Positions 5,160-62,857 of a stretch of 64,000 nt of DNA are shown piece by piece. Source of the stretch: Sorghum bicolor (taxonomy: Eukaryota; Streptophyta; Magnoliopsida; Poales; Poaceae); NCBI RefSeq assembly GCF_000003195.3, contig NC_012876.2, forward strand, positions 41,383,725 to 41,447,724, written 5' to 3'. The position numbers were made by a program, and so were the translations under genes. The notes beneath the pieces were generated by a model. That model was not told where the DNA came from. It ran no database searches and saw only the letters and a program-made list of their open reading frames with translations. Each line of letters begins with the position of its first letter. The stretch's first letter is position 1.

Positions 5160-8100
5160 TGTCACAGAACCGACCAAATTATAAGAGTTCAAGTGTAGAA
5201 ATGATCGCCAAGCAATCAAGTTTCCAAACTTGAGCCCATATAATCCCGGTAGTCAATTGAAATCACGAAGGACTTCAAACCAACTCGCAACAAACCAAGA
5301 TCGTAATAATTCAACATAAACACAGCGAATGTTACATAGTCATTCATTGCCGTCGAAGCGGCACCACATCGGAGTATTAAGTTATTACAACACTGGTTTG
5401 AAGTAGCGGAAGCAAAATAGTTACACACACACTTTCCAAATTCAGTTCTTAAGTTCGAGTTACTGCCATAGTCTATGCCATCCTTCCAAAAGTATGAGAT
5501 ACGAGATTGTTAGAGAACCGTGCCCGATGGTTAGTCCTCATCCCCAGCGGGATGGAGACAGGTCTTGCAGAAGCCGTCATAAAAGATGTCATCTGCAACA
5601 GGTGGGAATAAACCCTGAGTACGAGAATGTACTCAGCTAGACTTACCTGTCTAGTAAAATATAAAAGACACCAAGGATCATGCAAGGCTCGACATTTTGC
5701 CAAAAGCCTTTATTAAGACTAACACATTGTAAGAGCATCATATTTATTTACCATCAGCCTACCACTAGATTAGCACCTGTACTACAACACATCACTTGAT
5801 TATTACAAGCAATAATAACCATATCAAGTTCATCATATGTTCTTCTTGCTATCATCATTATCATGAACCAAGTTCAATAGTGAATGCTATGTTTGCCGCT
5901 GCTCTGTCAAGTTCTCACTGACCGGGAGAGACGGCGATTCGAATCGAATTCCTATCCAGCTGGAGGGTTATTCCTAGCACTCACCCAAGCATCCCCTGTC
6001 GGAGAGCCAACGGGTCACCTTTGGTACAACTCAGGAATCGTGGCTCCGATCAGCGCCGCACTCCCAGGGCTACCACTCTGCCAGGGAGGTCAGAAATTTT
6101 AACTCACCTGCCTTTGGGCTTACGCCAATGGTCCCCCGCACACCGCACTTCCTCCAGTAGTGCGCACTTTATACTTGCCGGTCTTCCGGCCTGAGTCATA
6201 CTACTCGGCTTCACGGTCGGAACGAGTTATGCGGCCAACTAAGTGTTAGGCATGCGTTCAACATGACAAGAGGACGTACAACGATCGGTCCTTAGCTGCC
6301 ACAGACGGAGTTACTACAAACTTGCAAAACTCCGCCCGGCTTAAGTCAAATTAATCAGGTTCCATCCACGATAGCACATATAGACCATCGTGATCCGACA
6401 TAACCCTATATCGCGCAGGCGACAGGATATCACCCGACTTCTACCGATTAAATCATGGCTAAGCTGCTACTCGATCCTAACTCTATAACCAGGTAGTGGT
6501 AAGATATCTGGACAAGGATTGAGTAAAATGCAGCAAAGGTTTCATCACAACTCCTATACTTAATGCAGCAATAAATATAACATATTAAATAAACTTTCAA
6601 AAGTAAAGGGAGACTTAGAATGCTCCGGGGCTTGCCTTTCACGAACGAGGCTGGCTCGTGATTTGGGCACTCAACTTCTTCTCCTTCGGGCTCCTCGAGT
6701 CCGACTTGCTGGACCTCCACTTCCGGGTTGCCCTCCTGACCTTCGGGAATCCCTTGCAGATCGAAGGAGACTGCCGTGTCCGATGCACCTATTGCATGCT
6801 CGGTGAATAAGAAGGTGTGCATATAAAAGAATGAATGTTTGATAACATAATGGATTCACTGGGCACTTATTTATGGAGTACACAGTTATAACAAGTTCAT
6901 ACAAGCTAACAAGTTAACCTAGTCCAAAACTTACCATGATACTACAACAGCAAGCAACATAAAACAGGAGTAACTCAGTAAATAAATCATAACTAATGAT
7001 AGACAGATCCAACAAACATAAGTGAATACATTCTGGAAAGCTTATGAAATTGTCTACAATTCATCTTTAAACATCACAGCAAGATTCATAAATTAAACCA
7101 ATCATTTAAACAAAGTTCCAGGTTCTGTCCCAGAAAAACAGAGAGCACCTATTTCTAGAACCCAACTTGGAACAGCCATAACTTTTAAACTACTTGGCCA
7201 AATGACCTCAAACTTAAACCACAGTTAGTTCAATAAGTTTACAACAACTTTGATTTAGACAAGTTTCACAGAAAGCCAAGTTATCATTAAGCAAAGGTTA
7301 AATCACTTCCTTGCTGTCCAGAACAGCCTTTGACCCTTTAATTAATTATTTGATGACATAACCAAAACATAAACCATGCCAGCCACATAGCTTATGAGCA
7401 CAAGCATATCACAAGGTTACCAGAACATCAGATGATGACCCTCATACATATACTTAACAAGGCATTTATTAATTAATTCTAGCAAAGAGCATAATTACAA
7501 GATGCTTAGTCAAAGTGCTCAAAAAAATCTATAAAAATTACAGGAGCACAAGTATAGCATCAAAGCATCACCATAAAAATTTCACAGCAATTGCACATAC
7601 CAAATTAAAGATATGTATTTAACATGTGCCCAAGTTTTATTTCATAATTTCAGAAACATGACTTATATGGTGTCAAACAACAGATTTCAAATTATTTACA
7701 TATGAGGAATACCAAAACATGTTTACTACCAAAGTAGAGCACCAGCATAAGCACCAATTATTTTATATAAATTAATCAAGGAAACAAGCCAAATTTCAAT
7801 CATAAATTATATATCAAAGCTGCATTACCCCAAAAATCATGAAATATTTATCATAGCACTCTAGTATCACACAGAGGCTACCACAAATTTTTCATGGCAA
7901 ACTAAGCAGTATAACCAGAGATATGTATTTATCCATGAATAACAAGATTAAATCTTTAATAAATATTTTCCCCGAAAACATGGTTCATTTTATATTTTTA
8001 TTAAAAACTAGCCATCTCAAGGAATACCACAAAATTGGTTTCACCATTTTTGGATCTCAGAAACAGGAGATATGATTTTTGCAAGAAAGCCAAAAATCAT

Positions 8101-9537
8101 GATTTTGAATAAAAGAAAAGGAGGGAAAGAGAGTGACGCTGACAGTGGACCCCGCCTGTCAGGGTCGTCTTCCTCCCGGACGAGGCGACTTTCGCCGGCG
8201 ATTTCTCCGCGACGGCGAGGTCTCCGGCCAAACCAAGGGCACCAACGTGATCCCCAGACTCTAGCGACTCGATTGACCCCCTTTTCCCCACGGCGGAGCC
8301 ACCAGAAGGGGCTCGCCGTCGACGATGGCGGCTCGGCGGAGGTGCTCGGCGTTACGCCGGAGCCCTCAGGCCGGTAGAGTGCGACCTAAGACCTTCTACA
8401 GCACCAGCGAACTACGGCGGAGCTTCCTAGGTACGCGGCTTGGCTTGGAACCTCGTGGAACACGCTGGCCACAAGAGCACCCATCTCCGGCGGAAACACG
8501 GCGGCGCTGCGCATCGTGTCCGGCGACGGAGAACTCGGTAGAGCGTCCACCAAGTGGCGCAAACGCAAGCTAGGAATCTAAGTAACCTCTAGGACCTAAC
8601 TAGAGACGACGAGAGGCTTCACAGGGCTCGGCATTGGGCTCGCCGGAAAAGAAGGTCACGGCGACCCGATTTGGGGGAAGAAGGGAATGGCGGCTCACCG
8701 GTGGATTTCTTGGCGAGATGATGGGTGGAGAATGGAGAGCGGTTCACGGTGAAGCTTTGGGTGAAGTTTGGTGTGCAATGGCGCAGCGAGGAACGCGCGC
8801 GAGCTCGCCGGAGTAAGCTCGCAACGGAGAGCTCACGGCGGCCGCGTTTCTGGCGAGAGGGGCGAGGCAGAGCGGAAGTGGACGCGTCCACTCTGCTCGG
8901 GGCAACGCCGTGGACTTCATGCACGCGTTGGGAGCTGACGAGCGGGGCCATCGCCGGCGTACGGGCGACATCTGGCGGACAGGTGTCGATCGGGACATCC
9001 ACGCCGGCGAGCTTAGCTCTGAAACGAAACTCGCGATCACCGACTGACAGAGCAACTTCGTCGACGATAAGCTCCCAAACCAGAGCGAGTTAGGAGATGG
9101 CGTAGTTGACAAAGTTGGAGTACCAACTGAGTTCTACAACTTTGTCAATTGGAGTAAAAGTCAGATCGGCCTGGATTGGGAGATATAAGATTCCGGCGTC
9201 CCCATACTTAGAAAATTTCTCTAAGTGTTGGAAACAACCCCAAATCTGCCTTATGGGTCACTTTTGAGCTATTTGTGGTCATTTTCATGAGATGGCCATA
9301 AAACAACTTTTGTTCCTTATAAAATTTGCTACAACTTTGCTGTAGGAAGTTTTGAGATGCAAACATTTTATGAAACACTTTTTAAAAGCCTAAGCAAAAG
9401 AGGTTTCTAGGGCCTATTTGCACAAGTATGACTTAAAGGCATATTTTGGAGAAGTGATCAACATGAACATTGTTCCCAAGGTTAAGTTAAGCATAGAGAA
9501 ACTAATTACCATGGCATAGAGCACAAACACAAGCACG

Positions 9538-9542
9538 GTTCA
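9538..9542. repeat. Target site duplication of A1, left (GTTCA)
   Basis: GTTCA here and at 18,861-18,865 flank A1; one copy belongs to the T1 LTR (compare the uninterrupted right LTR near 30,099). Confidence 0.9.
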
Positions 9543-11059
9543 TGTTGACACTAGCTAACACCACTTAGATACTAGGTTGTCATCCCTAGCATGGCGCCAG
9601 AGTGTACAAAGGTATTTATAAATGTAAAGGCTCTCTAGAAAATAATCTATTCTATCCGCAAGCGCACAGATAAAACACCTCATTGTAGCATTTCACCAGG
9701 ATAAGTATTCCAGGTATCGTTATTTATAATTTTGCTTAGGGGATCTTAAGAAGATGGAATTAAATCAAAGGGGCAAAATCTATCAAGGCATAGACTAGAG
9801 ATAAACTTGCAAGAACATGATTACAAATGAGAAACTCGTCACACAGTCACATACTTTAGCAGGGGGTAAACCATAAAGATAATGATAATAAAGTATAAGT
9901 TCATGGGATAAAGAGCACAGCGATTAGAAAATAGACTACTCCTCATATATGTAGGTGATGTCGGATTAGCTAGAGAATGGATTCTAAGTTATCTACTAAC
10001 TACTAAGTCATAATCTACTCTAGTTATCTACAAGATCATATATAGCATAAAAGACTCTTCATTCATGTATAAGGAACATTGATAAAGTAAATCAGAACAT
10101 CGCATGACTTACTCCACAATACCGGTTCTGCCTGTCCTATCAACGGAGGGTGGACTATATAAGAATCAACGAAGCTGTCACTATCGCGAACTACCACACG
10201 ACTCGGCCAATAGGATACATTTGTAGATAAATAACATCTAAGCACCACGCTCACATGTGATCTATCACCTAACTCCCTCGCGTCAAGAGCTAAGCGCTTT
10301 GCAAACTTATACATAAACTCATTATCAATTAGAACTATATCAAATATAGAACTAGAGCAAACTAAGAACATAATAATTAGAGACATAATGCAATTAGAAC
10401 AATAGAATTAGAGAAAGATATGAATAATACCAATCTTTATTACCAAAGATCCGAATCCAGAGCCTAGTGCTCTACTTCTCTAATTGCTATCTAATCAAAC
10501 CTCTAAACTTGAAGGATTAGGGAGTAGCTAATTCTAATTCTCTGTGGGAGAGAAGCTCTAAACCCTAACTTTGATGGCTACCTCTGAATAATGATTTCTC
10601 CTCCTCTCCTCCAGGGGCCAGGGGGTCTGGTTTTATAGTCCCCTCAAGTGAACATGAGCCATTGGATCAAACCGACATAGATTGTATGGTTTAGATTGAT
10701 CCTTTAGGTTGGTGGAGCGTAGTCCCGAAGCAGAGTCCTGATTGGCCTCCTGGCCAGGGCGGGCGCCCAAGGGGGGTGGGCGGCCGCCCAGCTCCCGAGC
10801 CCGATTCGCGTCCCGTTCGTTCCCGTGGCTTCTGGATCCTTCTAGATTGAGGAAAATTACGCGGCACGTAATTATCTCGTTGTAAACATGACATGTGGGC
10901 CTTCTCTCCATATTTTCTGATAAACCCCTGTAGAAATAGATAAACACCAAAGCTCGTGGAATTCTGTCAGATAAAACCCTAATTCTAGATGTTTGTTTCA
11001 TTTTGATCCTTTTTCATGTTTATTTGATTATTAATTTTAGTACTTAAGGACCGTCAACA
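9543..11059 (-). repeat. 3' LTR of A1
   Basis: Begins TGTTGACACTAGC and ends CCGTCAACA on the plus strand. Read in the element's direction it has two GC boxes at 10,778-10,789 (one base altered) and 10,757-10,768, spaced 21 bp, then a TATA-like box (TATAAAA) at 10,631-10,637 about 120 bp downstream. The minus-strand ORF 10,063-10,386 lies within it and recurs in the other LTR. Confidence 0.93.
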
Positions 11060-11100
11060 AACTCCCCCAAGCTTACCCTTTGCTCGTCCCTGAGCAAATA
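11060..11100 (-). other. Polypurine tract and adjacent hairpin of A1
   Basis: On the minus strand the tract AAGCTTGGGGGAGTT abuts the 3' LTR and would prime plus-strand DNA synthesis. Just upstream is the inverted repeat TTGCTCAGGGACGAGCAA, a 6-bp stem with a 6-base loop. The same hairpin-tract pair occurs in A2 (~50,170-50,206) and A3 (57,211-57,250). Confidence 0.85.
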
Positions 11101-12585
11101 GCTAATCTCAGACGGATCAGGAGTTGCTTCGATGTTTTCTTTCCTGACAGGCACACATGCTTTTACATAAAAATTCTTCCAGATTAGAGTGAAGTGTTAT
11201 GAAGTTTAGTACTTAAGTCTTAAGTAATCGAAAGACAAAATAGTTAAGTCAAGCACTATCCCTCCTGTCTATACTTCACCTTTGTTCTAGAGTTTTTCAT
11301 AAGTTTTCAAAATAAAACTCAGAGTTCCTAGCAATGATTCTCTCAAGTCTCTCTATATGTGGTATTTGTGGATCCTTACCATAATGTCACTTACCTATAG
11401 CTAATGAAATATTTAAGTGGAGCTCATAGGAGTGAAAAACAGCTCATACATATGTTGTCTAATCGAGCCATGGATCCAAAGGAACTCAGCATATAATTAA
11501 ATCAAGATGTGCATGTGTGGTGGAGTAAATGATAGTGATGGTGAAAATGCAATAGTGTTAATAAATCTTAGTTCTCATTGCTCCTCATATTGCTATCTCT
11601 CCTCCTCTTTGATCTTTGCTTTGGGAGAACATGGGCTATCTCTTTTTTTTTCAGGTGGGTAATAGATACCCCTAATTCTACTGTCGGACACTTGTCTATT
11701 TTTTTCCGCTCAAGTGGGCATCTTTGTACCCCTAATTCTACTTCGGACACTTGTCCATTTTTACCTCTCGTCTCACTCTTTTTCTTTCTTTTCCGAGGTT
11801 CCGGGCACTTGCCCCTTTTTATTTGCTCGTATGTTTTTTGCATAACCCATGCCTCTTCTACATTGAATCTTTTTAGAGAGAGAATAACAATACTTGGGAC
11901 AGTGAGTGATAATATATTTTTTTAGCAATTTTAATGATTAATGCTGTGGTAGATGCGTGCAAGTGAATATCTTAATTTAACCACATGAAAAGCTCCTAAG
12001 GGTCTACACAGCTCGATCAAACTCAATGTAAATATAGTAAAAGATGTTATAGCAAGTATGGCTGTGGTAGGTAGTTTTGTATGCTAGGAACTCATCATGT
12101 GATTTGTAAGTTTTCAAAAATAAATCTCCAGAACTTAGTGTAGTAGGAACAAGATAAACAGTAGCTCAACTTTATATCATGTCTTTCTCTTACATAGACT
12201 TTAGTTTTATGCTTCCCAAAGATAGTAATTTTAATTTTAGTAATTCCCGAAAGAATTCTAATATAAAAGCTAGGTACTTGTAAGTAAGCAAACAGAGCAA
12301 CTGTTCATCATTTCCATCATGCATCTTTTTGGTCTTTTTATTTTTTCTAGAGATTAAACTTAGCAGAAAAATAAAGCACACTTATCTACACACTCTTTTT
12401 ATTTTGTTTTCATGTTTATTAAAGTGCAGTGAATAAAAGCAAGAAAATATTTATTTGGTTTTCTAAGTTTTTCCCTTTAAGATAAATTAAATACTAAGAC
12501 AGAATAGAATAAATAAGAAGAGCAAATAAAAACTTACTTGATAAATTTGGGAGGAACTCCCCCAAGCTGGATGTTGATGTCGGTC
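11101..12585 (-). other. 3' non-coding region of A1
   Basis: AT-rich, with no sustained ORF. It is homologous to A3 57,250-58,760 and in part to A2 48,050-50,170. It contains repeats of the word CGGACACTTGTCC with ACCCCTAATTCTACT at about 11,665-11,755 and a third degenerate unit near 11,800. At 12,555-12,570 a second tract reads CAGCTTGGGGGAGTT on the minus strand, right after the ORF3 stop. ORFs at 11,568-11,925 on either strand arise from the biased repeats and are not believed. Confidence 0.7.
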
Positions 12586-14142
12586 TTACCCGATGTTCCA
12601 GAACCGCATCATGGTTGTGATGTTATCGTTCATTGTTGTTGTATCTTGTCTCAGTTCTTGTACCGCAGCAGCATGGTCCTGGTTCCATTTTTGTTGCTCT
12701 TCTAGGAGTCTTCCATGTTCTGCTTGCGTGTTCTAGATGTCGAGGGGGGTGTTGTCGGTACGAGTGAAGAAAGCACCGGCCTCTTGATAGTAGTCATTCG
12801 TGAAGTCGTAGGAGGCGTCGGAGTATCGTCCTGCATCAAATTGGGGTGGAGGTCTGGATCCTGAAGCTCCATATGGATCAGTGGAATACCTGCCCGTATG
12901 AAAAGGCGGGTTTGTCCACTGGTGATCTTGGCTCTCCGGCCATGTCTCCTCTGTTGGCTCTTGTAGTTGCGCATGACGAGCCCATGTGTCTCGAAGGACT
13001 CGTGGATTGTAATCGCAATAATGCAGGTGCGCTGCTTCTTCTGGTCCAGGGTCAGCTCCATACCAGGTGCGTTCTCGCTGAGTGGTTATCCTTTCAGATG
13101 CCACTCGCTGTGGAGTTCTCTGGTTCACTGGTGTTGCTGCAATCTCAATCAAAAAGTTTTGCACAGTGTAGAGGCCAAGGTTCGGGTTTGGTAACCGAAT
13201 CTTGCCTTTATCATCATACAGCATATACATTATATTCCCCTCTTTCTTTAACATCCGAGCTTGTCTAAATGTGTCATAGCCATGATAAATTCTTAATTCT
13301 TCTATGAAGTCCAACGATGAGTTTTCTAGTAAGTGAAGATTAGTGGCTAGACGAGTGATAAGTGAAGTACATCCTACTGGTCCCTGAAGACTAGGTATAC
13401 TAAGCCAATGTGAAACTAATAGTGTAACAGGTGAAGTAGGTACTTTACTAATAGCAGCATATAAAAGTTGTAAATCTCCTACTCTTACTTTCCTAATATC
13501 GTCACGATAGAAAAGATTGTACCCAAGCCATTTGTGGAACATCCTAAGAGTGGGGTGTTCCATGTCACTGGTTCGGGCTTGACTGTAAAAATTATCTCTA
13601 GATATTTCTCTCCAAAACTGGTGTCTCTCAAAGTTGGGTAAATCGGAGTCAATGTTTAGGATGCATCTTGAAGAGAAACTAAGATGGTCGCTCAGTTCTC
13701 TCCAAGATAACATAATTTCCTGTTTAAACATCCGAAAAACAATTCCCCCCTCATAGTATTGTAAGGTGCAAAGAAATTCGAGGGTGAGAAGACGAGAACC
13801 CAGCTCAGTTATATTCCAAAAATTTGTCCAACCCATCATCTGAAAAATTAAGTCAAATTCAGTGTCCATACCTGTTTCTTGTAGTAGGGTTGGATCGAGA
13901 GTAGGGGTGTGAATGAAATCTTTATTCTTTAATTGCTGATAAACTTCCTTCTCTCTTCGGGTCTTCAGTCCTAGGTCTCCTATCTTGAGAAGGACCTTGA
14001 CTTGCTGGCCTGATGAAGATCATGGAGCTTGTGTGGGTGTAGGATCGACGCTCATCTCTGATGGCTGTGAGGAGTGTCGGGTCGAACTCCTTGTACCAAT
14101 GTTCTTGAGAGCCATCCCTGCATTCTTCACCTTCTTAAACAT
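12586..14142 (-). pseudogene. ORF3 of A1, ATHILA-ORF1-like protein (two nonsense codons)
   Basis: The frame runs from ATG at 14,140-14,142 to TAA at 12,586-12,588 (518 codons). It is interrupted by TGA after codon ~41 and by TAG at 12,733-12,735 (a CAG-to-TAG type change, judged against A3). The central part, from about 13,870 to 13,137, contains the blocks RLLTLEFLCTL, HPTLRMFHKWLGYNLF and GDLQLLYAAIS, which resemble the ATHILA ORF-1 family of unknown function. N- and C-terminal parts are hydrophilic and rich in Gln, Thr, Pro and His. I see no signal peptide or clear membrane anchor, so an envelope role is not supported. A3 has the same ORF with exactly 735 bp missing. The ATG sits just after a splice-acceptor-like sequence. 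Confidence 0.75.
13137..13871 (-). other. Candidate coding intron (exitron) inside A1 ORF3
   Basis: On the minus strand the segment starts CAG|GTATGG at 13,871 and ends ATTGCAG|CAAC at 13,137. It is 735 bp, 245 codons, open throughout, and has a pyrimidine-rich run (CTTTTTGATT) near the acceptor. In A3 the flanking sequences are fused exactly at this boundary near 59,313. The ORF3 lengths (1,557 and 822 bp from ATG to the homologous stop) differ by exactly 735. The segment encodes nearly the whole ATHILA-ORF1-like domain. Splicing is inferred; a coincidental deletion cannot be excluded. Confidence 0.7.
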
Positions 14143-14160
14143 CCTGCAAACAAAAGTTGG
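14143..14160 (-). promoter_or_regulatory. Splice-acceptor-like site immediately upstream of ORF3 ATG
   Basis: The minus strand reads CAACTTTTGTTTGCAG|GATG, a pyrimidine run plus CAG one base before the start codon. A3 has CAACTTTTGTCTATAG|GATG at the same place. This would suit a spliced subgenomic mRNA for ORF3, as known for the env-like ORF of barley Bagy-2. Confidence 0.5.
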
Positions 14161-14470
14161 CAAAAACACAACTGGTGGAAAATGTGAGATAAAATGTTAG
14201 TGGTCAGCTGTCCAGAGTGTCAGTAGTCCATGGGTTAATCGTTCAAGACAAGTTTCTATTTTGGTAGAGCCTCCCCCTAAACAACTTTTACTTTCGCTTG
14301 GACAGCGGGATTACTAATTGCTAGGTGACAATCGCTTTCTCAAAAGAACTCCAACCTTCCCTTCCACTCTCCTCTTTCTCTCTACTCTCTTCTCTTCACT
14401 ACAAGAACTCCTTCTCGGGAAACTGAGATTTCTGAAGTGTTTGTGTGAAGAGAAGGGAGCTGAAGGTGGC

Positions 14471-14506
14471 CTTTTATAGGCTGAGCAGGGGACAGGGCGG
14501 GCGCCC
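14471..14506 (-). promoter_or_regulatory. Internal promoter-like module upstream of ORF3 (A1)
   Basis: In transcription order there is a GC box GGGCGCCCGCCC (14,495-14,506) and then CCTATAAAAGG (about 14,470-14,480). The same GC box occurs as a pair in the LTR promoters. Here only one box remains; the corresponding A3 site keeps both. It lies ~330 bp upstream of the ORF3 ATG. Confidence 0.5.
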
Positions 14507-15017
14507 ACCCATGGTGTCCATCCTGGGTGTGCCTCCTCCACTTGCTTCCTTGCTTTGATCTCACGCAGAATAATATTGTGTTGATAGTGGTTGGACGGTG
14601 GAAAGATGTCAAGTGAGTGGAAACATATTGGTGGATGAAATTATGTGATGGGATGTATGTGAGGTGAAGTGTATGACATGTGAGACCCAAAGAGTGTGGG
14701 TCATGCTTCTAGAAGATCAATATAAATAAATATAATGCAGGAAAATCTATGAGAATTGAATCTTAATGAAAATGATATTGGAAAATATTTTTGTGCCTCC
14801 ATAATAATTAATAAATATGGGTTGTTACACACCACGAATATTATTTATATGGGGCTTTTTGATTATTATAATTATGCTATGAATGTATATGACTAATGCA
14901 AGAATTAATTATGCAAGAATTTAAATATGAGAAAATTAATAATGCGGATAAATACCGATTTACCTCCCGGTGAGGGTTTGGGATTTTTAGGTCCCCCAAG
15001 CTGGACCTCCAAATCTT
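14507..15017 (-). other. A1 spacer between protease and ORF3 module
   Basis: AT-rich and non-coding; the ORFs at 14,314-14,690 are low-complexity shadows. A polypurine-like tract CCAGCTTGGGGGACC on the minus strand lies at about 14,993-15,007, directly after the protease stop. A3 lacks ~190 bp of this spacer, including that tract. Confidence 0.6.
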
Positions 15018-16262
15018 TTAATCTTCTGAGTTTCCTTCCTCCGGAGATGGTGTCTCCAGTGGTTCTTCATGAACTTCCTTTACTGTAGAGTCTCTCTCTG
15101 GTCTGGGTTTGAATGTGAAGTGTTCTTCTTGACCGTTTATGTTGAACTTGATTTCTCCCTTCCCGACATCAATGTGGGCATTGGCAGTGCTCAGAAATGG
15201 CCTTCCAAGGATGATGGACACTTTCGAGTTAGGACTCATGTCCAGTACTACGAAGTCTACTGGCACTAGGAAATCTCTGATCTTGACTGGAATGTTCTCG
15301 GCGATGCCCAACGGGTGTCGAACCGATTGATCCGCTAGTTGTAGACACATTGATGTTGGTTCTAAAGTTGCATCCTCAAGCTTTTTGTAGACTGATGCTG
15401 GCATCACACTGACACTTGCTCCGAGATCACAAAGTGCATTATTGAAGTGTTGGTTTCCGATCGAGCAATCGATAGTGGGACATCCGGGATCTTCCTTCTT
15501 CTTTGGTGGTTTGTTGAGGATGGCCGCACTACATTCTTCTGTCAGCTTGATAACCTCAGTGGTGGGCAGTGGTCTCTTCTTGTTAAGAATTTCTCTGATG
15601 TACTTTGCATATGTAGGTACCTGTATGGCATCGAGCAGAGGTATGTTGACATATAATTTCTGAATGACCTCTACAAACTTACCAAACTGCTCATCCGACT
15701 GTAGTCCTCTGTTTCTTCTGGGAAATGGCAAATAGTTGGTGTCGTAAAAATCTTTCCTCATTTCTCCAGTTCTTGGTGGTTGGAGCAGATCTTCTGCTTC
15801 AACTGGGCTTTCTTCTTCTATCACTGCTGGTTGCACTGGTGCTGATGATCTTTGTTTCTCTTTTGGGTATGGTGGATCTCTGGTAGCTTTACCTCCTCTA
15901 GTAGTTATATTCTTTACCTGCTCAAGGTTAGTAGCAACAGGCAGTGCAGCAGCTAACTTTATTAATTTAAGCTCTACCCTTTTATTAAGAGTGTTTTGCT
16001 CATCAAAGGCAGTTAGTAGAAAATCCATTTTATTGTGTATATCTTTTAGAGATGATTCATTTGTATCTAGCCTTTGTTTAACTTCATCATTAATTTTGGT
16101 TTGTTGAGCAATTATCTCTTTTAATGAAAGTTGCTTGATAGTATTACCTGAATTCATACCTTTGCTATTGGGTTGACTCGAAGTTGGTTGATATTTGTAT
16201 GCTGTCTCAATGGCCCTTTGATCTTCTTTGAACTTGGCCCTCTGGTCAATCCAATGGAGCAA
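15018..16262 (-). CDS. Gag C-terminus and aspartic protease of A1
   Basis: A 414-residue open frame. The N-terminal third is coiled-coil-like (LKEIIAQQTKINDEVKQRL and following). The C-terminal part is a retropepsin-like domain: ALCDLGASVSVMP with a D-L-G active-site triplet typical of Athila-type elements, and IILGRPFLSTANAHID as the second hallmark. It ends with an acidic Pro/Glu tail. No CCHC zinc knuckle exists between gag and protease, unlike A2. A one-base deletion near 16,255 puts it out of frame with gag, so the listed start is only the first in-frame codon; expression as part of a gag-protease polyprotein is inferred from intact A3. Confidence 0.8.
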   Translation of the reverse strand: MLHWIDQRAKFKEDQRAIETAYKYQPTSSQPNSKGMNSGNTIKQLSLKEIIAQQTKINDEVKQRLDTNESSLKDIHNKMDFLLTAFDEQNTLNKRVELKLIKLAAALPVATNLEQVKNITTRGGKATRDPPYPKEKQRSSAPVQPAVIEEESPVEAEDLLQPPRTGEMRKDFYDTNYLPFPRRNRGLQSDEQFGKFVEVIQKLYVNIPLLDAIQVPTYAKYIREILNKKRPLPTTEVIKLTEECSAAILNKPPKKKEDPGCPTIDCSIGNQHFNNALCDLGASVSVMPASVYKKLEDATLEPTSMCLQLADQSVRHPLGIAENIPVKIRDFLVPVDFVVLDMSPNSKVSIILGRPFLSTANAHIDVGKGEIKFNINGQEEHFTFKPRPERDSTVKEVHEEPLETPSPEEGNSED

Positions 16263-16294
16263 ATTTCCATCTTAGTTGATAATGCATTTACTTC

Positions 16295-16972
16295 TTATGG
16301 TATTTCTTCAGTTTGATGACAATGTTGAGCTTTATCTTGGAACCAGCTTTGGTTTTCTGCTATCTTATCCAAAAGTATCTCTGCTTTTCCAGTTGTAAGC
16401 TCCAAGAATGATCCTTTAGCAGATGCATCTATGCACTCACGAGCCTTCTGGGTTAATCCATGGTAGAAGGTCTGCATAAGTAACCATGTGGCCATTCCAT
16501 GGTGAGGACAATCTGATATGTATCCTTGAAAACGCTCCCATGCTTCTGAAATGGCTTCTGTCTTCTGCTGTTGGAAACTGACAATATTTCCTCTTAAGGC
16601 AGTTGTTTTGCCTATAGGGAAAAACTTTGATAGAAAGGCATCTGACAAGTTCGTCCAGTTGTTGATGTTATCTTGATGAGTTTAGAACCACTTCCTCGCT
16701 TCCCCTTCTAGTGAGAATGGAAAAAGGCGAAGTAATATGACGTCTTTGTCAACTCCGTTGATGTGGATTGTGCTTCCAATTTCTAAGAAATTCTGCAAGT
16801 GTGCACTGGCATCTTCATGTGCCTTTCCACTGAATTGTGTAGCTTGCACCAAATTGATGAGGCTTGACTTGAGCTCAAACTCGGGTATTCCTTCTTCTAC
16901 TGCAAATCTTGGACCGGTTGGAATGTTGTCAAGACTTGGAGCAGAGAATTCTTGCAAGGTCTTTTCTGCCAT
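16295..16972 (-). pseudogene. Gag N-terminus of A1 (two stops)
   Basis: Starts at ATG 16,970-16,972. It carries the Athila-like gag signature FELKSSLINLVQATQFSGKA, followed by EDASAHLQNFLEI and RLFPFSLEGEARKWF. A TAA at 16,682-16,684 and a TAA at 16,295-16,297 interrupt the frame; A3 has sense codons at both places. Capsid assembly is the known role of this family. Because A1 is recent, these lesions may have been acquired after insertion or carried by packaging in trans. Confidence 0.8.
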
Positions 16973-17318
16973 AGCTTCAGCAATTGGTAGCTAGCTTATT
17001 CTTTTCTTGATTGCTTTGGTTCTGATGATGTAGAGTTGAATGTACCCAAAGTCAATCCTGTTATACCCTGTATAAAAATATAAACATAGAAAAACAACAG
17101 GGTGAACCTGCCAAAGCAGCGGTGCCTTGTTATGATTTCTCACTTAGTAGCTGTTTTATGCAAATATTTCTCTAGTCTAGTCTACTATTTTATATGAATA
17201 ACCTTGATTGATTCTCTAGCTTTCCTTAATATTACCCTTTTGTTCCCTTTTATGACTTATTCCTGAGACTCATATAATTCCTATAAGATGTCCTATAGAT
17301 CCTATAAGTCCTATAGCT
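16973..17318 (-). other. 5' leader of A1
   Basis: AT-rich untranslated leader between primer site and gag ATG. It is homologous to 62,236-62,512 in A3. Packaging signals are expected here from family knowledge, but none can be defined from the sequence. Confidence 0.6.
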
Positions 17319-17335
17319 CCCCGGCAACGGCGCCA
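17319..17335 (-). other. Primer binding site, tRNA-Asp (A1)
   Basis: The plus strand reads CCCCGGCAACGGCGCCA, identical to the 3' end of plant tRNA-Asp; the minus strand is the complementary primer site TGGCGCCGTTGCCGGGG. It lies 8 bp from the 5' LTR. Confidence 0.95.
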
Positions 17336-17343
17336 GAAATGCT

Positions 17344-18860
17344 TGTTGACACTAGCTAACACCACTTAGATACTAGGTTGTCATCCCTAGCATGGCGCCA
17401 GAGTGTACAAAGGTATTTATAAATGTAAAGGCTCTCTAGAAAATAATCTATTCTATCCGCAAGCGCACAGATAAAACACCTCATTATAGCATTTCACCAG
17501 GATAAGTATTCCAGGTATCGTTATTTATAATTTTGCTTAGGGGATCTTAAGAACATGGAATTAAATCAAAGGGGCAAAATCTATCAAGGCATAGACTAGA
17601 GATAAACTTGCAAGAACATGATTACAAGTGAGAAACTCGTCACACAGTCACATACTTTAGCAGGGGGTAAACCATAAAGATAATGATAATAAAGTGTAAG
17701 TTCATGGGATAAAGAGCACAGCGATTAGAAAATAGACTACTCCTCATATATGTAGGTGATGTCGGATTAGCTAGAGAATGGATTCGAAGTTATCTACTAA
17801 CTACTAAGTCATAATCTACTCTAGTTATCTACAAGATCATATATAGCATAAAAGACTCTTCATTCATGTATAAGGAACATTGATAAAGTAAATCAGAACA
17901 TCGCATGACTTACTCCACAATACCGGTTCTGCCTGTCCTATCAACGGAGGGTGGACTATATAAGAATCAACGAAGCTGTCACTATCGCGAACTACCACAC
18001 GACTCGGCCAATAGGATACATTTGCAGATAAATAACATCTAAGCACCACGCTCACATGTGATCTATCACCTAACTCCCTCGCGTCAAGAGCTAAGCGCTT
18101 TGCAAACTTATACATAAACTCATTATCAATTAGAACTATATCAAATATAGAACTAGAGCAAACTAAGAACATAATAATTAGAGACATAATGCAATTAGAA
18201 CAATAGAATTAGAGAAAGATATGAATAATACCAATCTTTATTACCGAAGATCCGAATCCAGAGCGTAGTGCTCTACTTCTCTAATTGCTATCTAATCAAA
18301 CCTCTAAACTTGAAGGATTAGGGAGTAGCTAATTCTAATTCTCTGTGGGAGAGAAGCTCTAAACCCTAACTTTGATGGCTACCTCTGAATAATGATTTCT
18401 CCTCCTCTCCTCCAGGGGCCAGGGGGTCTGGTTTTATAGTCCCCTCAAGTGAACGTGAGCCATTGGATCAAACCGACATAGATTGTATGGTTTAGATTGA
18501 TCCTTTAGGTCGGTGGAGCGTAGTCCCGAAGCAGAGTCCTGATTGGCCTCCTGGCCAGGGCGGGCGCCCAAGGGGGGTGGGCGGCCGCCCAGCTCCCGAG
18601 CCCGATTCGCGTCCCGTTCGTTCCCGTGGCTTCTGGATCCTTCTAGATTGAGGAAAATTGCGCGGCACGTAATTATCTCGTTGTAAACATGACATGTGGG
18701 CCTTCTCTCCATATTTTCGGATTAACCCCTGCAGAAATAGATAAACACCAAAGCTCGTGGAATTCTGTCAGATAAAACCCTAATTCTAGATGTTTGTTTC
18801 ATTTTGATCCTTTTTCATGTTTATTTGATTATTAATTTTAGTACTTAAGGACCGTCAACA
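17344..18860 (-). repeat. 5' LTR of A1
   Basis: 1,517 bp, equal in length to 9,543-11,059. Paired GC boxes lie at 18,579-18,590 (altered) and 18,558-18,569, with a TATAAAA box ~120 bp downstream near 18,432-18,438. The LTR is followed by GTTCA. Confidence 0.93.
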
Positions 18861-19025
18861 GTTCACTCAAACATAAGCATAGGAAGCCTATTTAAGCATT
18901 TTAAATCACAGTTTTGCATAGAATGACATGGCTCAAGATAGATGATGATCATGATATGCTTTGAGTAGATGATGATGCTCATGCTATGCACATGATCAAT
19001 GCAACCATAACACTGGGGTGTTACA

Positions 19026-19045
19026 GCCCTCCCCCCTTACAAAAA
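19026..19045 (-). other. Polypurine tract of T1
   Basis: The minus strand reads GTAAGGGGGGAGGGC directly before the 3' LTR start TGTAACACC. This is the expected plus-strand primer of a Ty3/gypsy element. Confidence 0.85.
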
Positions 19046-25676: not shown

Positions 25677-25678
25677 GC

Positions 25679-30262: not shown

Positions 30263-30267
30263 GTATC
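30263..30267. repeat. Target site duplication of T1, right (GTATC)
   Basis: Matches 5,155-5,159. The base order across the empty site is preserved in X3 near 54,304. Confidence 0.9.
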
Positions 30268-45235: not shown

Positions 45236-45243
45236 AGCATTTT

Positions 45244-45261
45244 TGGCGCCGTTGCCGGGGA
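45244..45261 (+). other. Primer binding site, tRNA-Asp (A2)
   Basis: TGGCGCCGTTGCCGGGGA, complementary to the 3' end of plant tRNA-Asp, 8 bp after the 5' LTR. Confidence 0.95.
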
Positions 45262-45395
45262 AGGTTGATTACTAATCAGGAATGGAATAAAAGATTTTGA
45301 GTTATCATTCGCATCACTAATATGATTGAGCTTATCTATTCTCTCATACAGTTTTACCCCGATATTTTTCTATTTTATCTTATGCAGGGGAATGT

Positions 45396-55712: not shown

Positions 55713-57210
55713 TATTGACACTTACTAACACCACTTAGATACTAGGTTGTCATCCCCGGTATGGTGCCAGAGTGTACAAAGGTATTTATAAATATGGAGG
55801 CTCTCTAGAAAATAATTTATTCTATCCGCAAGCGCACAGATAAAACACCTCATTGTAGCATTTCACCAGGTAAGTATTCCAGGTATCGTTATTTATAATT
55901 TTGCTTAAGAGGAGATAAAAATAAGGATAAAATCTATCAAGGCATAGGCTAGAGATAAACTTGCAAGAACATGATTACTAATGAGGAACTCGTCACACAG
56001 TCACTTACTTTTGGGAGGGGGGTAAGCCATAATAATAATGATAATGAAATATAAGCTCGTGGGTAAATAACACAGCGATTAGAAAATAGACTACTCCTCA
56101 TATATGTAAGGTGACGTCGGATTAGCTAGAGAATAGATTCTAAATTATCTACTGTCTACTAAGTCACAATCTACTTTAGTTATCTACAAGATCATATATA
56201 GCATAAAAGACTCTTCATTCATGTATAAGGAACATTGCTAAAGTAAATCAGAGCATCGCAAGACTTACTCCGCAATACAAATTCTGCCTGTCCTATCAAC
56301 GAAGGGTGGATTATATAAGAAAAAACGAAGCTGTCACTCTCGCGAACTACCACACGACCCGGCCAATAGGATACATTTGCAGGTAAATAACATCTAAGCA
56401 CCACGCCTACATGTGATCTAATACTTAACTCCCACGTGTCAAGAGCTAAGCGCTTTGCAAACTTATACATAAACTTATTATCAATCATAACTATATCAAA
56501 TATAGAACCAGAGCAAACTAAGAGCATAATAAATAGAGACATAATGCAATTAGAATAAAGTAGTAGAGAAAGATATGAAATAATACCAATCTTTATTAAC
56601 GAAGATCCGAATCCAGAGCGCTAGGCTCTACTTCTCTAATTCTATCTAATCAATCCTCTAAACTTGAAGGATTAGTTAGCAGCTAATTCTAATTCTCTGT
56701 GGGAGAGAAGATCTAAAACCCTAACTTTGATGGCTACCTCTGATAATGATTTCTCCTCTCCTCCTGGGTGGAGAGGCCTTGATTATATAGTCCTTTCAAG
56801 TGAATTTGGGCCGTCGAATCAAACCGACATTGATTGAACGGTTATCCTTGATCCTTTAGGTCGGTGGAGCATAATCCACAAAGTTGATTGTGATTGGCCC
56901 CGAGGACAGGGCGGGCGCCCAAGGGGGGAGGGCGGGCGCCCTGCCCCCGAGCCCGTCCGGTCTCCTGTTCGTTCCCGTGGCTTCTGGACTCATATAGGTT
57001 AAGGAAAATTGCGCGGCATGTAATGATCTCATTGTAAACATGACATGTGGGCCTTCTCTTCATATTTTTTGATAACCCCCTGCAGAAATAGAAAACACCA
57101 AAGCTCGTGGAATTCTGTCAGATAAAACCCTAATTCTAGATGTTTGGTGCATATTGATCCTTTTCCATGTTTAGTTGATGATTAAATTTAGTACTTAAGG
57201 ACCGTCAACA
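55713..57210 (-). repeat. 3' LTR of A3
   Basis: 1,498 bp, ending CCGTCAACA. Its first bases are TATTGACA instead of TGTTGACA, so the terminal dinucleotide has mutated. GC boxes at 56,930-56,941 and 56,909-56,920 (21-bp spacing); a TATA-like box (CTATATAATC, minus) lies near 56,781-56,790. The minus-strand ORF 56,219-56,542 is homologous to those in the A1 LTRs. Confidence 0.9.
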
Positions 57211-57250
57211 AACTTCCCCAAGCTTACCCTTTGCTCGTCCCTGAGCAAAC
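57211..57250 (-). other. Polypurine tract and hairpin of A3
   Basis: Same arrangement as A1: TTGCTCAGGGACGAGCAA then AAGCTTGGGGAAGTT against the LTR, with one G changed to A in the tract. Confidence 0.82.
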
Positions 57251-58761
57251 AGCTAAACTCAGATGGATCAGGAGTTGCTTCGATGTTTTCTTTCCTGACA
57301 GGCACACATGCTTTCACATAAAAATTCTTCGAGATTAGAGTGAAGTGTCAAGGGGCTTAGTACCTGCACTTAAGTCTTAAGTAATCGAAAGACAAAATAA
57401 TTAAGTCAAGCACTATTCCTCCTCTCTATACTTCACCTTTGTTCCAGAGTTTTGCATAAGTTTTCAAAAATAAAACTCAGAGTTCCCAGCTAAGATTCTC
57501 TCAAGTCTCTCTATCTGTGGTATTTATGGATCCTTACAAAGATGTCACCTACCTATAGCTAGTGAAATATTTAAGTGGAGCTCATAGGTGTGAAAAACAG
57601 CTCATACATATGTTGTCTAATCGAGCCATGGATCCAAAGGAACTCAGCATATAATTAAATTAAGATGTGCATGTGTGGTGGAGTAAATGATAGTGATGGT
57701 AAAAATGTAAAAGTGATGATAAAACTTACTTCTCATTGCTCCTCATATTGTTATCTCTCCCCTTCTTTGATCTTTGCTTTGGGAGAACATGGGCTATCTC
57801 TTGTTTTTTTCAGGTGGGTAATAAATACCCCTAATTCTACTGTCGGACACTTGTCCATTTTTTCCGCTCAGGTGGGCATCTATGTACCCCTAATTCTACT
57901 CCGGACACTTGTCCATTTTTACCTCTTGTCTCACTCTCTTTTTCTTTCTTTTTCTTTCGAGGTTCCAGGCACTTGCCCCTTTTTATTTCCTCGTATATTT
58001 TTGCATAACCCATGCCTCTTCTGCATTGAATCTTTTTAAAGAGAGAAAATAGCAACACTTGAGACAGTGAGTGATAATATTTTTAGCAATTTTAATGAAT
58101 GGTGGTGAATGGTGTAGTGGATGTGTGCAAGTGAATATCTTAATTTAACCACATGAAAAGCTCCTAAGGGTCTACACAGCTCGATCAAACTCAATGTGAA
58201 TATAAGTAGGAAAAGATATTATAGCAAATATGGTTGTGGTAGGAAGTTTGTCGTGCTAGAAACTCATCATGTGATTTGCAAGTTTTCAAAATAAATCTCC
58301 AGAGCTCAGTGTAGTAGGAACAAGATAAACACCAGCTAAAACTTTATATCATGTCCTTCTCTTACCTAGGCTTTAGTTTTAGGTTCATGCTTCCCATAGA
58401 TAGTAATTTCAGTTTTAGTAATTCCTGGAAGAACTCTAATATAAAAGCTAGGTACTCAAAAGTAAGTAAACAGAGCAACTGTTCATCATTTCCATCAAGC
58501 ATCTTTTTGGTCTTTTTATTTTTCTAGAGATTAACACTTGGCAGATAAATAAGCACACTTATCTACACACTCTTTTTATTTTGTTTTCATTTTTATAGAA
58601 TGCAGTAAATTAAAGAAAGAAAATATTTATTGAGTTTTCTAAGTTTTTCTCTTTAAGATAAATAAAACACTAAAACAGAAAAGAATAAATAAGAAGGGCA
58701 AATAAAAACTTACTTGATAAAACGGGGAGGAACTCCCTCAAGCTGGATGTGGTTGTCGGTC
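57251..58761 (-). other. 3' non-coding region of A3
   Basis: AT-rich and colinear with A1 11,101-12,585. It repeats the CGGACACTTGTCC/ACCCCTAATTCTACT units at ~57,828-57,920. An internal purine tract (CAGCTTGAGGGAGTT, minus) lies near 58,730-58,745 next to the ORF3 stop. No coding sequence believed. Confidence 0.7.
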
Positions 58762-59583
58762 TTACCCAATGTTCCAGAATCGCATCATGGTGGTGATGTT
58801 GTCGTTCATTGTCGTGGTGTCTTGACTTAGTTCTTGTACTGCAGTGGCGTGGTTCTGGTTCCACTTTTGTTGTTGTTCTAGGAGTCGTCCATGTTCTGCT
58901 TGCGTATTCTGGATGTCAAGGAGGGTGTTGTCGGTACGGGTGAAGAAGGCGTCGGCCTTTTGGTAGTAGTCGTTCGTGAAAGCATAAGAGGCGTTGGAGT
59001 ACCGTCTTGCATCGAATTTGGGCGGGGGTCTGGACCCTGAAGCTCCATATGGATCAGTGGAGTGCCTGCCCGTACGGAAAGGCAGGTTTGTCCACTCGTG
59101 ATCTTGGCCCTCCGGCCATGTCTCCAGTGTTGGCTCTTGTGGTTGAGCATGTCGAACCCATGGGTCCCGAAGGACTCGGGGGTATTAGTCGCAATAATGC
59201 AGGTGCGCTGCTTCTTCTGGCCCGGGATCAGCTCCATACCAGGTGCGTTCTTGATGGGTGGTCATCCTTTCAGATGCCACTCGTTGTGGAGCTCTCTGGT
59301 TTACTGGTGTCACTGTTTCTTGTAGCAAGATAGGATCAAGAGTGGGGGTGTGAATGAAATCCTTATTCTTTTGCTGCTGGTAAACTTCCTTTTCCCTACG
59401 GGTCTTTAGTCCAAGGTCTCCTGTCTTGAGGAGGACCTTGACTTGCGGATCAGATGAAGATGACGGAGCTTGCGGGGGTGTCGGGTCGACGCTCATCTCT
59501 GACTGGTGTGAGGAATGTCGGGATGAACTCCTTGTACCAATGTTCTTGAGGACCTTCCCTGCGTTCTTCACCTTCTTGAACAT
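58762..59583 (-). pseudogene. ORF3 of A3, lacking the ATHILA-ORF1-like domain
   Basis: From ATG 59,581-59,583 to TAA 58,762-58,764, the same start and stop as A1 ORF3. The N-terminus MFKKVKNAGKVLKNIGTRSS and the Gln/His-rich C-terminus match A1, but the 245-codon middle is absent and the join (GAAACAG/TGACACC near 59,313) lies exactly at A1's GT-AG boundaries. One TAA at 59,185-59,187 splits the frame; the TGA and TAG of A1 are sense here. Function unknown. Confidence 0.78.
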
Positions 59584-59602
59584 CCTATAGACAAAAGTTG
59601 AC
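59584..59602 (-). promoter_or_regulatory. Splice-acceptor-like site upstream of A3 ORF3
   Basis: The minus strand reads CAACTTTTGTCTATAG|GATG, one base before the ATG, parallel to A1. Confidence 0.45.
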
Positions 59603-59930
59603 ACACATACAACTAGTGGAAAATGTGTGAGAGAAAAAATGTTAGTGGTGAGCTGTCCGAAATGTCAGTAGTCCAGGGGTTAGTCGTTCAAGACAAGTTT
59701 TTATTTTGGCCGCACCTCCCCCTAAACAACTTTTACTTCGCTTTGGACAGCGGGATCACTACTTTATAGGTGAACCTCACTCTTTTACTCAGAGACTACC
59801 AACCTCTCTTCCACTCTTCTCTTCCTCACTACTATCCTTCTTTCTTCACTACAAGAGCTCCTACTCTGGAAACTAAAACTTGCGTGGTTTTCTGGGAGGC
59901 TTGTGTGATGGAGATGGAGGCAGGAGGTGG

Positions 59931-59988
59931 CAATTTATAGGAGGAAGGGGGGACAGGGCGGGCGCCCTCTATAGGTGGGCGGGCGCCC
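59931..59988 (-). promoter_or_regulatory. Internal promoter-like module of A3 with paired GC boxes
   Basis: GC boxes GGGCGCCCGCCC (minus) at 59,977-59,988 and 59,956-59,967, 21 bp apart, followed by CTATAAATTG at 59,931-59,940. This is the LTR promoter grammar in an internal position ~350 bp upstream of ORF3. Confidence 0.55.
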
Positions 59989-60171
59989 ACCTTTGGTGCC
60001 CATCCAAGCTGCAACTTTTCTATTCCCTCCTTTGCTTAATCTTTAAGCCAAAAAATAATTCATGGGTAGTGGTTGGTCAGTGAAAAAGTGCTGGTGAGTG
60101 GAGATATGTTGGTGGATCAAATAATATGATGGGATGTGTGTGTACGACATGTTGGACCCAAGGAGTGTGGG

Positions 60172-62235
60172 TCATGCTTCTAGAAGATTGCTATAATTAA
60201 ATATAATGCTGGAAAATCTATGAGAATTGAAATTTATTGGAATGACAATGAAGAATATTTTTGTGCCTAAACAATAATTACCTTCTAAATTACCTTCCTC
60301 CGGAGATGGTGTCTCCAGTGGTTCTTCTTCATGAACTTCCTTCACTGTAGAGTCTCTCTCTGGTCGGGGCTTGAATGTGAAGTGTTCTTCTTGTCCGTTT
60401 ATGTTGAACTTGATTTCTCCCTTCCCGACATCAATGTGGGCATTGGCAGTGCTCAGAAATGGCTTTCCAAGGATGATGGATACTTTTGAGTCAGGACTCA
60501 TGTCCAGTACCACGAAGTCTACTGGCACAAGGAAATCTCTTATCTTGACTGGAATGTTTTCGGCGATACCCAACGGGTGTCGAACTGATTGATCTGCTAG
60601 TTGCAGGCACATTGATGTTAGTTCTAGGGTCGTATGCTCAAGCTTCTCGTAGACTGATGTTGGCATCACACTGACACTTGCTCCTAGATCACATAGTGCA
60701 TTATTGAAGTGTTGGTTTCCGATCGAGCAATCAATGGTGGGACATCCTGGATCCTTCTTCTTCCTTGGTGGTTTGTTGAGGATGGCCGCACTACATTCTT
60801 CTGTCAGCTTGATAACCTCAGTGGTGGGCAGTGGTTGCTTCTTGTTAAGAATATCTCTGATGTACTTTGCATATGTAGGTACCTGTATGGCATCAAGCAG
60901 AGGTATGTTGACATATAATTTCTGAATGACCTCTACAAACTTACCAAACTGCTCATCCGACTGCAGTCCTCTGTTTCTTCTGGGAAATGGCAAATAGTTG
61001 GTGTCGTAAAAATCTTTCCTCATTTCTCCAGTTCTTAGTGGTTGTAGCAGATCTTCTGCTTCAACTGGGCTTTCTTCTTCTATCACTGCTGGTTGCACTG
61101 GTGCTGATGTTCTTTGTCTCTCTTTTGGGTATGGGGGATCCCTGGTGGCTTTGCCTCCTCTAGTAGTTATGTTCTTTACCTGCTCAATGTTAGTGGCAAC
61201 AGGCAACGCAGCAGCTAGCTTTATTAATTTAAGCTCTACCCTTTCATTAAGAGTGTTGTGCTCATCAAAAGAAGTTAATAGAAAATCCATTTTATTCTGT
61301 ATGTCTTTTAGAGATGATTCATTTGTGTCTAGCCTTTGTTTAACTTCATCATTAGTTTTGGTTTGTTGAACAATTATCTCTTTTAATGAAAGTTGCTTGA
61401 AAGTATTACCTGAATTCATACCTTTGCTATTGGGTTGACGTGAAGTGGTTTGGTATTTTAATGCTGTCTCACTGGCCCTTTTATCTTCTTTGAACTTGGC
61501 CCTCTGGTCAATCAAATAGATCAAATTTTCCATCTTGGTTGATAATGCATTTACTTCTTCTGGTATTTCTTCAGTTTGATGACACTGTTGAGCTTTATCT
61601 TGGAACCAGCTTTGGATTTCTGCTATCTTATCCAAAAGTATCTCTACTTTTCCAATTGTAAGCTCCAAGAATGATCTCTTAGCAGATGCATCTAGGCACT
61701 CACGAGCCTTCTGGGTTAATCCATGGTAGAAGGTCTGCATAAGTAACCATGTGGGCATTCCATGGTGAGGATAATCTAATATGTATCCTTGAAAACGCCC
61801 CCATGCTTCTGAAATAGTTTCTGTCTTCTGCTGTTGGAAACTGACAATATTTCCTCTTAAGGCAGCTGTCTTGCCCATTGGGAAAAACTTTGATAGAAAG
61901 GCATCTGACAAGTTCGTCCAGTTGTTGATGTTATCTTGATGAATGTAGAACCACTTCCTTGCTTTCCCTTCTAGTGAGAATGGAAAGAGGCGAAACAGTA
62001 TGACGTCTTTGTCGACTCCGTTGATGTGGATTGTGCTTCCAATCTCTAAGAAATTCTGCAAGTGTGCACTAGCATCTTCAGGTGCCTTTCCACTGAATTG
62101 TGTAGCTTGTACCAAATTGATGAGGCTTGACTTGACCTCAAACTCGGGTGCTCCTTCTTCTACTACAAATCTTGGACCAGTTGGAATGTTCTCAAGGCTT
62201 GGAGCAGAGAATTCTCATAGGGTCTTCTGTGCCAT
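60172..62235 (-). pseudogene. Gag-protease of A3 (one early TGA, altered end)
   Basis: Begins at ATG 62,233-62,235; a TGA at 62,215-62,217 follows six codons later, after which the frame is open to 60,172. Gag blocks SSLINLVQATQFSGKA and RLFPFSLEGKARKWFY, then coiled-coil-like stretches (LKEIIVQQTKTNDEVKQRL), then the protease (LCDLGASVSVMP; SIILGKPFLSTANAHID, with Lys where A1 has Arg). No CCHC knuckle. The last ~35 residues are a novel tail produced by the spacer deletion that removed the original stop region. The early TGA might be bypassed by initiation at a downstream codon. Confidence 0.82.
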
Positions 62236-62512
62236 AGCTTCAACAATTGGTAGCTAGCTTCTTCTTTCTTTCTTGATTGCTTTGGTTGTGATGATGAAGA
62301 GTTGAATGTACCAAAGTCAATCCTGATATTCCCTGTATAAAAATATAAACATAGAAAAACAACAGGGTGAACCTGCCAAAGCAGAGATGCCTTGTTATGA
62401 TTTCTCACTTAGTAGCTGTTGTATGCAATTATTTCTCTATAGTCTAGTCTAATATTTTATGTGAATAACCTTGACTGACTTCCTGACTTTTCTTACCGTT
62501 TCTTCTTCTATT
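62236..62512 (-). other. 5' leader of A3
   Basis: Homologous to the A1 leader at 16,973-17,318; AT-rich with no credible ORF. Confidence 0.6.
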
Positions 62513-62529
62513 CCCCGGCAACGGCGCCA
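62513..62529 (-). other. Primer binding site, tRNA-Asp (A3)
   Basis: Plus strand CCCCGGCAACGGCGCCA, identical to the tRNA-Asp 3' end. Confidence 0.95.
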
Positions 62530-62537
62530 GAAATGCT

Positions 62538-62857
62538 TGTTGACACTTACTAACACCACTTATATACTAGGTTGTCATCCCCAGCATGGTGCCAGAGTGT
62601 ACAAAGGTATTTATAAATATGGAGGCTCTCTAGAAAATAATCTATTCTATCCGCAAGCGCACAGATAAAACACCTCATTGTAGCATTTCACCAAGTAAGT
62701 ATTCCAGGTATCGTTATTTATAATTTTGCTTAAGAGAAAAATGGAGATGAAGATAAGGATAAAATCTATCAAGGCATAGGCTAGAGATAAACCAGTCACT
62801 TACTTTTGGCAGGGGGTAAGCCATAATAACAATGATAATGAAATATATGCTCATGGG
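62538..62857 (-). repeat. 5' LTR of A3, truncated by A4
   Basis: TGTTGACACTTACTAACACC onward, matching 55,713 onward for ~320 bp, then interrupted at GCTCATGGG by the A4 LTR. This copy keeps the TG terminus lost in the other LTR. The likely target duplication is ATGGG (62,853-62,857), unconfirmed. Confidence 0.85.

Follow-up and report, generated by a model that had tools for sequence, protein, structure and literature searches.

A 735-bp coding segment with splice-like ends in an Athila-like LTR element of Sorghum bicolor was probably lost from a related copy through splicing and reverse transcription

Spliced RNAs of the human LINE-1 (L1) element insert into the genome, and the resulting copies, the spliced integrated retrotransposed elements (SpIREs), account for 131 of 6609 copies in the cited part of that study (PMC5860796). 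A pair of copies that may be regarded as their analogue among plant long terminal repeat (LTR) elements lies in a 64,000-nucleotide stretch of Sorghum bicolor DNA (contig NC_012876.2, positions 41,383,725 to 41,447,724; hereafter the window), in which the related elements A1 and A3 differ by 735 bp within an open reading frame (ORF) designated ORF3. Similar to the SpIREs, which are a minority of copies in the text cited, A3 lacks a segment with exact splice boundaries: the segment is absent precisely between the GT and the AG of a related full copy. In contrast to A3, SpIREs are non-LTR elements, their splicing takes place in the 5' untranslated region (UTR) or between 5' UTR and ORF1, and it is backed by RNA and cell assays, whereas the present case is read from sequence alone.

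For the soybean element Diaspora, it was proposed in 2005 that the env-like region could have been lost via anomalous splicing of genomic RNA and reverse transcription; the alternative named was illegitimate recombination (PMC1142308, as far as its accessible text goes). The lineage of Diaspora includes Athila, a trait shared with the A1/A3 case. In Diaspora the entire env-like region is gone and the accessible text gives no junction, whereas A1 and A3 show both the parent form and an exact GT-AG join. Facultative introns have been described in the plant LTR elements BARE1, Ogre, CRR, EVADE and Bagy2 (PMC3735527 and PMC12786077, in the parts accessible). The intron of BARE1 resembles the segment of A1 in being facultative, coding and U-rich against GC-richer flanks. 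Unlike in these elements, a spliced copy appears to have been fixed here, and we infer the splicing of an A1-type element. In the yeast Ty reporter assay, transposition removes an intron that has been inserted into an LTR element (PMC12786077); that intron is artificial and the setting experimental, whereas the segment of A1 is a natural coding one.

The features on which the comparison of A1 and A3 is based are as follows (a slash marks a boundary; position 1 is the first base of the window).

9543..18860, minus strand: element A1, with an LTR pair, a 5-bp flanking repeat, gag-protease and ORF3
about 55715..62792, minus strand: element A3, a relative of A1 without the segment
12586..14142, minus strand: ORF3 of A1, 1557 bp with the stop (271 + 735 + 551)
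13872..14142, minus strand: upstream flank (exon 1) of A1 ORF3, 271 bp
13137..13871, minus strand: 735-bp in-frame GT-AG segment in A1 ORF3, candidate exitron
12586..13136, minus strand: downstream flank (exon 2) of A1 ORF3, 551 bp with the stop
58762..59583, minus strand: ORF3 of A3, 822 bp (271 + 551), flanks fused between 59313 and 59312
13866..13874, minus strand: candidate 5' splice site CAG/GTATGG, first of 51 GT sites in ORF3 and second of 399 in the element
13136..13151, minus strand: candidate 3' splice site TTGCAG/C, fifth of 122 AG sites in 12589-14145 and 15th of 726 in the element

On its minus strand A1 reads AACAG/GTATGG ... GATTGCAG/CAACACC, with 735 bp between the slashes (13871..13137), and A3 reads GAAACAG/TGACACC at the join of 59313 and 59312. 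This base-level comparison agrees with the first-pass annotation, which had described an in-frame GT-AG segment of A1 as precisely absent from A3. Since the flanks measure 271 and 551 bp in both copies, the 735 bp constitute the entire length difference between the two ORF3 (1557 vs 822 bp) and no other net indel exists, as had been stated. The further claim that the flanks are fused at the exact boundary holds for one placement of the join: four placements are possible, as the upstream flank and the segment both end in CAG, and one of the four is GT-AG.

The segment is open for all of its 245 codons, as annotated earlier. It has the sequence characters expected of an exitron, namely splice-like ends, a length that is a multiple of three, no internal stop and protein-coding content. 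The match to the Pfam family ATHILA (PF03078, E 2.1e-12) spans residues 24-191 of a 428-aa open stretch. About 26 of the 168 matched residues lie in the upstream flank and approximately 85% of the match falls inside the segment, somewhat short of the nearly whole domain ascribed to it before. Neither ORF3 is intact, a point absent from the first-pass annotation: that of A1 is interrupted in frame by stops at 14022-14020 and 12735-12733, both in the flanks, and that of A3 by one at 59187-59185, likewise in a flank. Beyond PF03078, Pfam searches of 26 members gave weak Transposase_32 matches in five (best E 0.009) and eight other families scattered over one or two members each. A structure prediction for the 428-aa stretch with 25 relatives reached a mean predicted local distance difference test score (pLDDT) of 32 and was unusable. 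On the minus strand, exon 2 is overlapped by a second open frame (12702-13085 in A1, 58878-59261 in A3), which is 127 codons long and equal in place and length in both elements; its A1 copy has no Pfam match.

The ranks of the candidate splice sites were obtained with assumed angiosperm frequencies as weights. All deletions within A1 ORF3 that are in-frame, at least 201 bp long and bounded by at least 3 bp of microhomology were enumerated. Only 36 of these 3977 deletions are GT-AG compatible and, with these weights, two attain a combined splice score as high as that of the observed deletion, which is itself part of each count. When microhomology is ignored, 838 of 221434 in-frame deletions are GT-AG compatible; the counts of 36 and 838 are independent of the weights. 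The composition of the segment also departs from that of its flanks, with a T content of 31.7% (vs 19.3% and 16.6%) and a GC content of 38% (vs 46% and 52%). The excess of T extends to third codon positions (36% vs 21% and 21%) and is therefore more than a consequence of the protein's make-up. The facultative intron of BARE, which is proven, has a similar U-rich contrast to its flanks (PMC3735527, accessible part). As a local control, the four internal gaps of at least 12 bp between A1 and A3 were compared: GT-AG ends can be written for the 735-bp gap alone; the gaps of 211, 73 and 21 bp have no such placement, shifts of up to 6 bp included. The 211-bp gap corresponds to 14811-15021 in A1, between gag-protease and the ORF3 cassette, near where divergence rises.

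Three protein searches yielded 124 distinct proteins. One of them, P0022 (169 aa, from a single 2841-bp jgi contig), shows the identical join, LLQET/VTPVNQ, and is the sole such case. Among the other 123 proteins, 68 are continuous through the 5' boundary and 34 through the 3' boundary, two being in both sets; the 23 that run through neither are uninformative. Both sequences without the whole segment, A3 and P0022, share the same boundaries, and none of the deletions with other breakpoints found among the 124 proteins removes the whole segment. Three smaller in-frame deletions have well-aligned sequence on both sides, gaps next to short or poorly aligned ends being disregarded: 63 aa within the domain are missing from P0060, 15 aa close to the 3' boundary from P0092, and 12 aa of exon 1 from P0120. 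The first-pass annotation had held that differing breakpoints around the segment would count against splicing. On the protein level the answer is mixed: these three proteins differ, whereas the two whole-segment losses coincide.

Relatives that carry the domain occur at identities of 50-77%. Those at 50-54% (P0012, P0013, P0015 and P0018-P0020) bear it as well, and in P0013 (51%) the sequence continues across both boundaries with the domain in place. Since relatives at about 50% identity bear the domain, the domain-bearing state is, on this distribution, ancestral and the loss in A3 derived. The two bases following the join are TG in A3 and CA in A1. At the 3' boundary, 18 of 34 domain-bearing copies read EIAV, the commoner Ala-Val type. 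The TG of A3 fits a parent of this type, as a spliced EIAV copy would read ETVTPVN, the sequence of A3 and P0022. The two changed bases were also considered as a CpG effect, a reading dropped in favour of the Ala-Val parent.

Taken with the exact GT-AG ends, the preserved frame, the ranks of both sites, the U-richness, the join of P0022 and the direction of change, it is quite probable that the 735 bp were lost by splicing and subsequent reverse transcription of element RNA, as the first-pass annotation had suggested. The 735-bp stretch would then be a facultative protein-coding intron (exitron) in the ORF3 of a non-autonomous Athila-type LTR element. Most transcripts would retain it, and their ORF3 would carry the ATHILA ORF-1 domain; from some others it would be excised precisely by the spliceosome. 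The shortened RNA would keep its LTR ends and packaging signal and would have been packaged at least once. With enzymes supplied in trans by an autonomous partner, reverse transcription and integration of the cDNA could have given rise to the domain-less ORF3 that A3 and the source copy of P0022 carry. The parent and the joined form, their boundaries and frame, the direction of change, the splice-signal quality and the second identical join are observed; splicing and its frequency, packaging, the enzyme source and any function of a short product are steps that we infer from them.

Several points weigh against this account. The join is rare, P0022 is known from protein alone, and the loss in A3 may have preceded or followed the insertion of A3. 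The acceptor of the segment is middling and without a long pyrimidine tract, and the ranks of donor and acceptor depend on the frequencies assumed. The splicing proposal as a whole is built on DNA and protein comparisons. Moreover, the CAG at both ends permits a 3-bp microhomology deletion, in which pairing of the two CAG would have removed the 735 bp from the DNA of an A3 ancestor, the splice-like ends being due to chance. That other in-frame deletions occur in the family, in P0060 at a shared RMF-like stretch and also in P0092 and P0120, is in keeping with such an event. It is nonetheless improbable in our judgement: few comparable deletions are GT-AG compatible (the 36 of 3977 given above), CAG at both ends is also predicted by the splice sites themselves, the segment is U-rich like plant introns, and an identical deletion would be very unlikely if P0022 arose independently. 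The reverse history, in which the joined form is ancestral and the A1 lineage gained the domain by insertion, accounts for the pattern of presence and absence only. It is scarcely credible and was rejected, given the relatives at about 50% identity that already bear the domain, the passage of P0013 through both boundaries, and an ATHILA match that begins in the upstream flank.

The splicing account leaves the number of events to be weighed, and a single old loss, by splicing or deletion, may have founded a lasting domain-less ORF3 lineage that spread via transposition and recombination and includes A3 and P0022, with no splicing today. This possibility overlaps the others, as it concerns how many events took place, and we place it a little below even. 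The approximately unbiased (AU) test, run on few columns, does not reject a single clade of A3 and P0022 (p 0.516 for exon 1 and 0.369 for exon 2), and that the two may stem from one event also weighs against the splicing account. The purifying selection on the ORF3 flanks between A1 and A3 and the stronger divergence of the ORF3 cassette relative to its neighbours, both described below, would suit it too, the latter being expected under cassette exchange. On the other side, A3 shares 84 of 90 exon 1 residues with the domain-bearing P0028 and 79 of 90 with P0022, and free trees set A3 and P0022 apart, joining them in 0% (exon 1) and 6% (exon 2) of 200 bootstrap trees. The exon 1 tree comprised 57 rows and 90 columns and the exon 2 tree 34 rows and 45 columns; proteins covering fewer than 80 of the 90 or 36 of the 45 columns, and those whose alignment scores were low, had been excluded beforehand. 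In exon 2, P0022 has a frameshift that reads alike in the domain-bearing P0008, P0112 and P0094. A different frameshift is found at the same spot in P0100 and P0117, so that the shared one may be recurrent. On these grounds two separate events are tentatively favoured, the trees by themselves being compatible with one event or two.

The ORF3 flanks of A1 and A3 differ by a nonsynonymous divergence (Ka) of 0.061 and a synonymous divergence (Ks) of 0.534, that is, a Ka/Ks of 0.12 over 270 codons (0.09 in exon 1 and 0.13 in exon 2). For the 3' part of gag-protease, Ks is 0.193 and Ka/Ks 0.20. The flank ratio indicates that both flanks were maintained as protein-coding sequence during most of the time since A1 and A3 separated; being pairwise, it does not apportion this selection to the A3 line after the loss. 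Kimura two-parameter distances between the elements are 0.068 in the leader and gag-protease, 0.289 between the ORFs, 0.242 in the ORF3 leader, 0.16 and 0.15 in the exons, 0.087 in the 3' region and 0.121 in the 3' LTR. The ORF3 cassette, including its non-coding leader (12589-14810 in A1 vs 58765-60281 in A3), is thus more diverged than either side; the windows of the 3' region that adjoin ORF3 are somewhat more diverged than distant ones, which makes for a gradual edge. A1 and A3 are most simply read as sharing a backbone that carries ORF3 cassettes of different descent, as would result from template switching. The joined cassette may have entered the A3 backbone via switching between spliced and full-length RNA.

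Element A1 has both LTRs (17344-18860 and 9543-11059), which are 99.08% identical across 1517 bp and end in TGTTG...CAACA, and it is flanked by the 5-bp repeat GTTCA at 9538-9542 and 18861-18865. These hallmarks of retrotransposition are complete in A1, and the 5' LTR of A3 is seen only as a fragment of approximately 250 bp (about 62540-62792). The insertion of A1 splits another element, with 5159-9542 matching 25678-30102 and 18861-19026 matching 30098-30263. A further coding part of A1 is:

15018..16990, minus strand: gag-protease region of A1, three open stretches interrupted by stops or shifts, identified with Pfam

Retrotrans_gag and PF03078 are above the Pfam cut-off in A1, and matches to aspartyl protease are below the curated cut-offs. 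No reverse transcriptase or integrase was found in A1 by a Pfam scan of ORFs no shorter than 100 aa, which covered 14 of the 15 in the element, the fifteenth being a repeat, in the other LTR, of a scanned one. A tblastn search of A1 with the reverse transcriptase and RNaseH-integrase ORFs of a neighbouring element gave a single match, which was not significant (E 0.55). A1 is therefore probably non-autonomous. It combines gag-protease with an ATHILA ORF-1 family protein, as elements of the Athila lineage (Ty3/gypsy) do; as no reverse transcriptase was found that could be placed in the Athila clade, the lineage is assigned by the ATHILA match alone and the element is called Athila-like.

Elsewhere in the window, a plus-strand element at 43581-51865 has 1660-bp terminal repeats with 99.4% identity and contains a 740-aa ORF that matches gag; its LTR begins with sequence about 83% similar to some 460 bp of the A1 LTR in inverted orientation. 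Three elements carry, antisense to their gag region, matches to Rfam snoR71 (RF00097) above the gathering score, at 16495-16601 (plus), 61758-61864 (plus) and 45915-46021 (minus); this family was possibly built on a repeat. Scans for viral contigs and plasmid records, by DNA and by protein, gave no match, nor did a tRNA scan.

Further candidate signals were recognized in A1 upstream of ORF3 and of gag. One of them abuts ORF3:

14143..14158, minus strand: strong acceptor-like site TTTGTTTGCAG/G, second of 726 AG sites, one base before the ORF3 start codon

A3 retains the AG at this position just before its ORF3 start. The site would suit a spliced ORF3 message by analogy with Bagy2, for which a spliced env message has been reported (PMC3735527, accessible part), and no donor has been assigned to it. 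Together with a site at 17068, upstream of the gag ORF and unchanged in A3, it is one of the two top-scoring acceptor-like sites of A1, and both could mark spliced messages. A TATAAAAG stretch at 14471-14478 (minus strand), about 330 bp upstream of the ORF3 start and present in altered form in A3, is a possible internal promoter.

The idea that a retroelement domain is lost through spliced RNA was already put forward for Diaspora. A plant LTR case with a defined splice junction was not found among the literature matches listed, from which subscription papers were mostly absent; on this weak evidence of absence, a defined junction with parent and joined copy would be new here. The Ka/Ks of 0.12 in the ORF3 flanks and the diverged ORF3 cassette, by which the elements look mosaic, are also new here. 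With parent and joined copy side by side and with exact splice ends, the proposal of 2005 becomes directly testable by junction counts. The A1/A3 case is likewise relevant to the idea, expressed for BARE in the accessible text of PMC3735527, that plant elements exclude spliced RNA from replication. A wider scheme, which we hold only tentatively and regard as on the doubtful side, is that a conserved exitron in ORF3 switches between a domain-bearing and a domain-less protein, that reverse transcription repeatedly freezes the loss, and that template switching swaps cassettes between backbones. If true, protein domains would be lost recurrently from a plant LTR element through splicing together with recombination.
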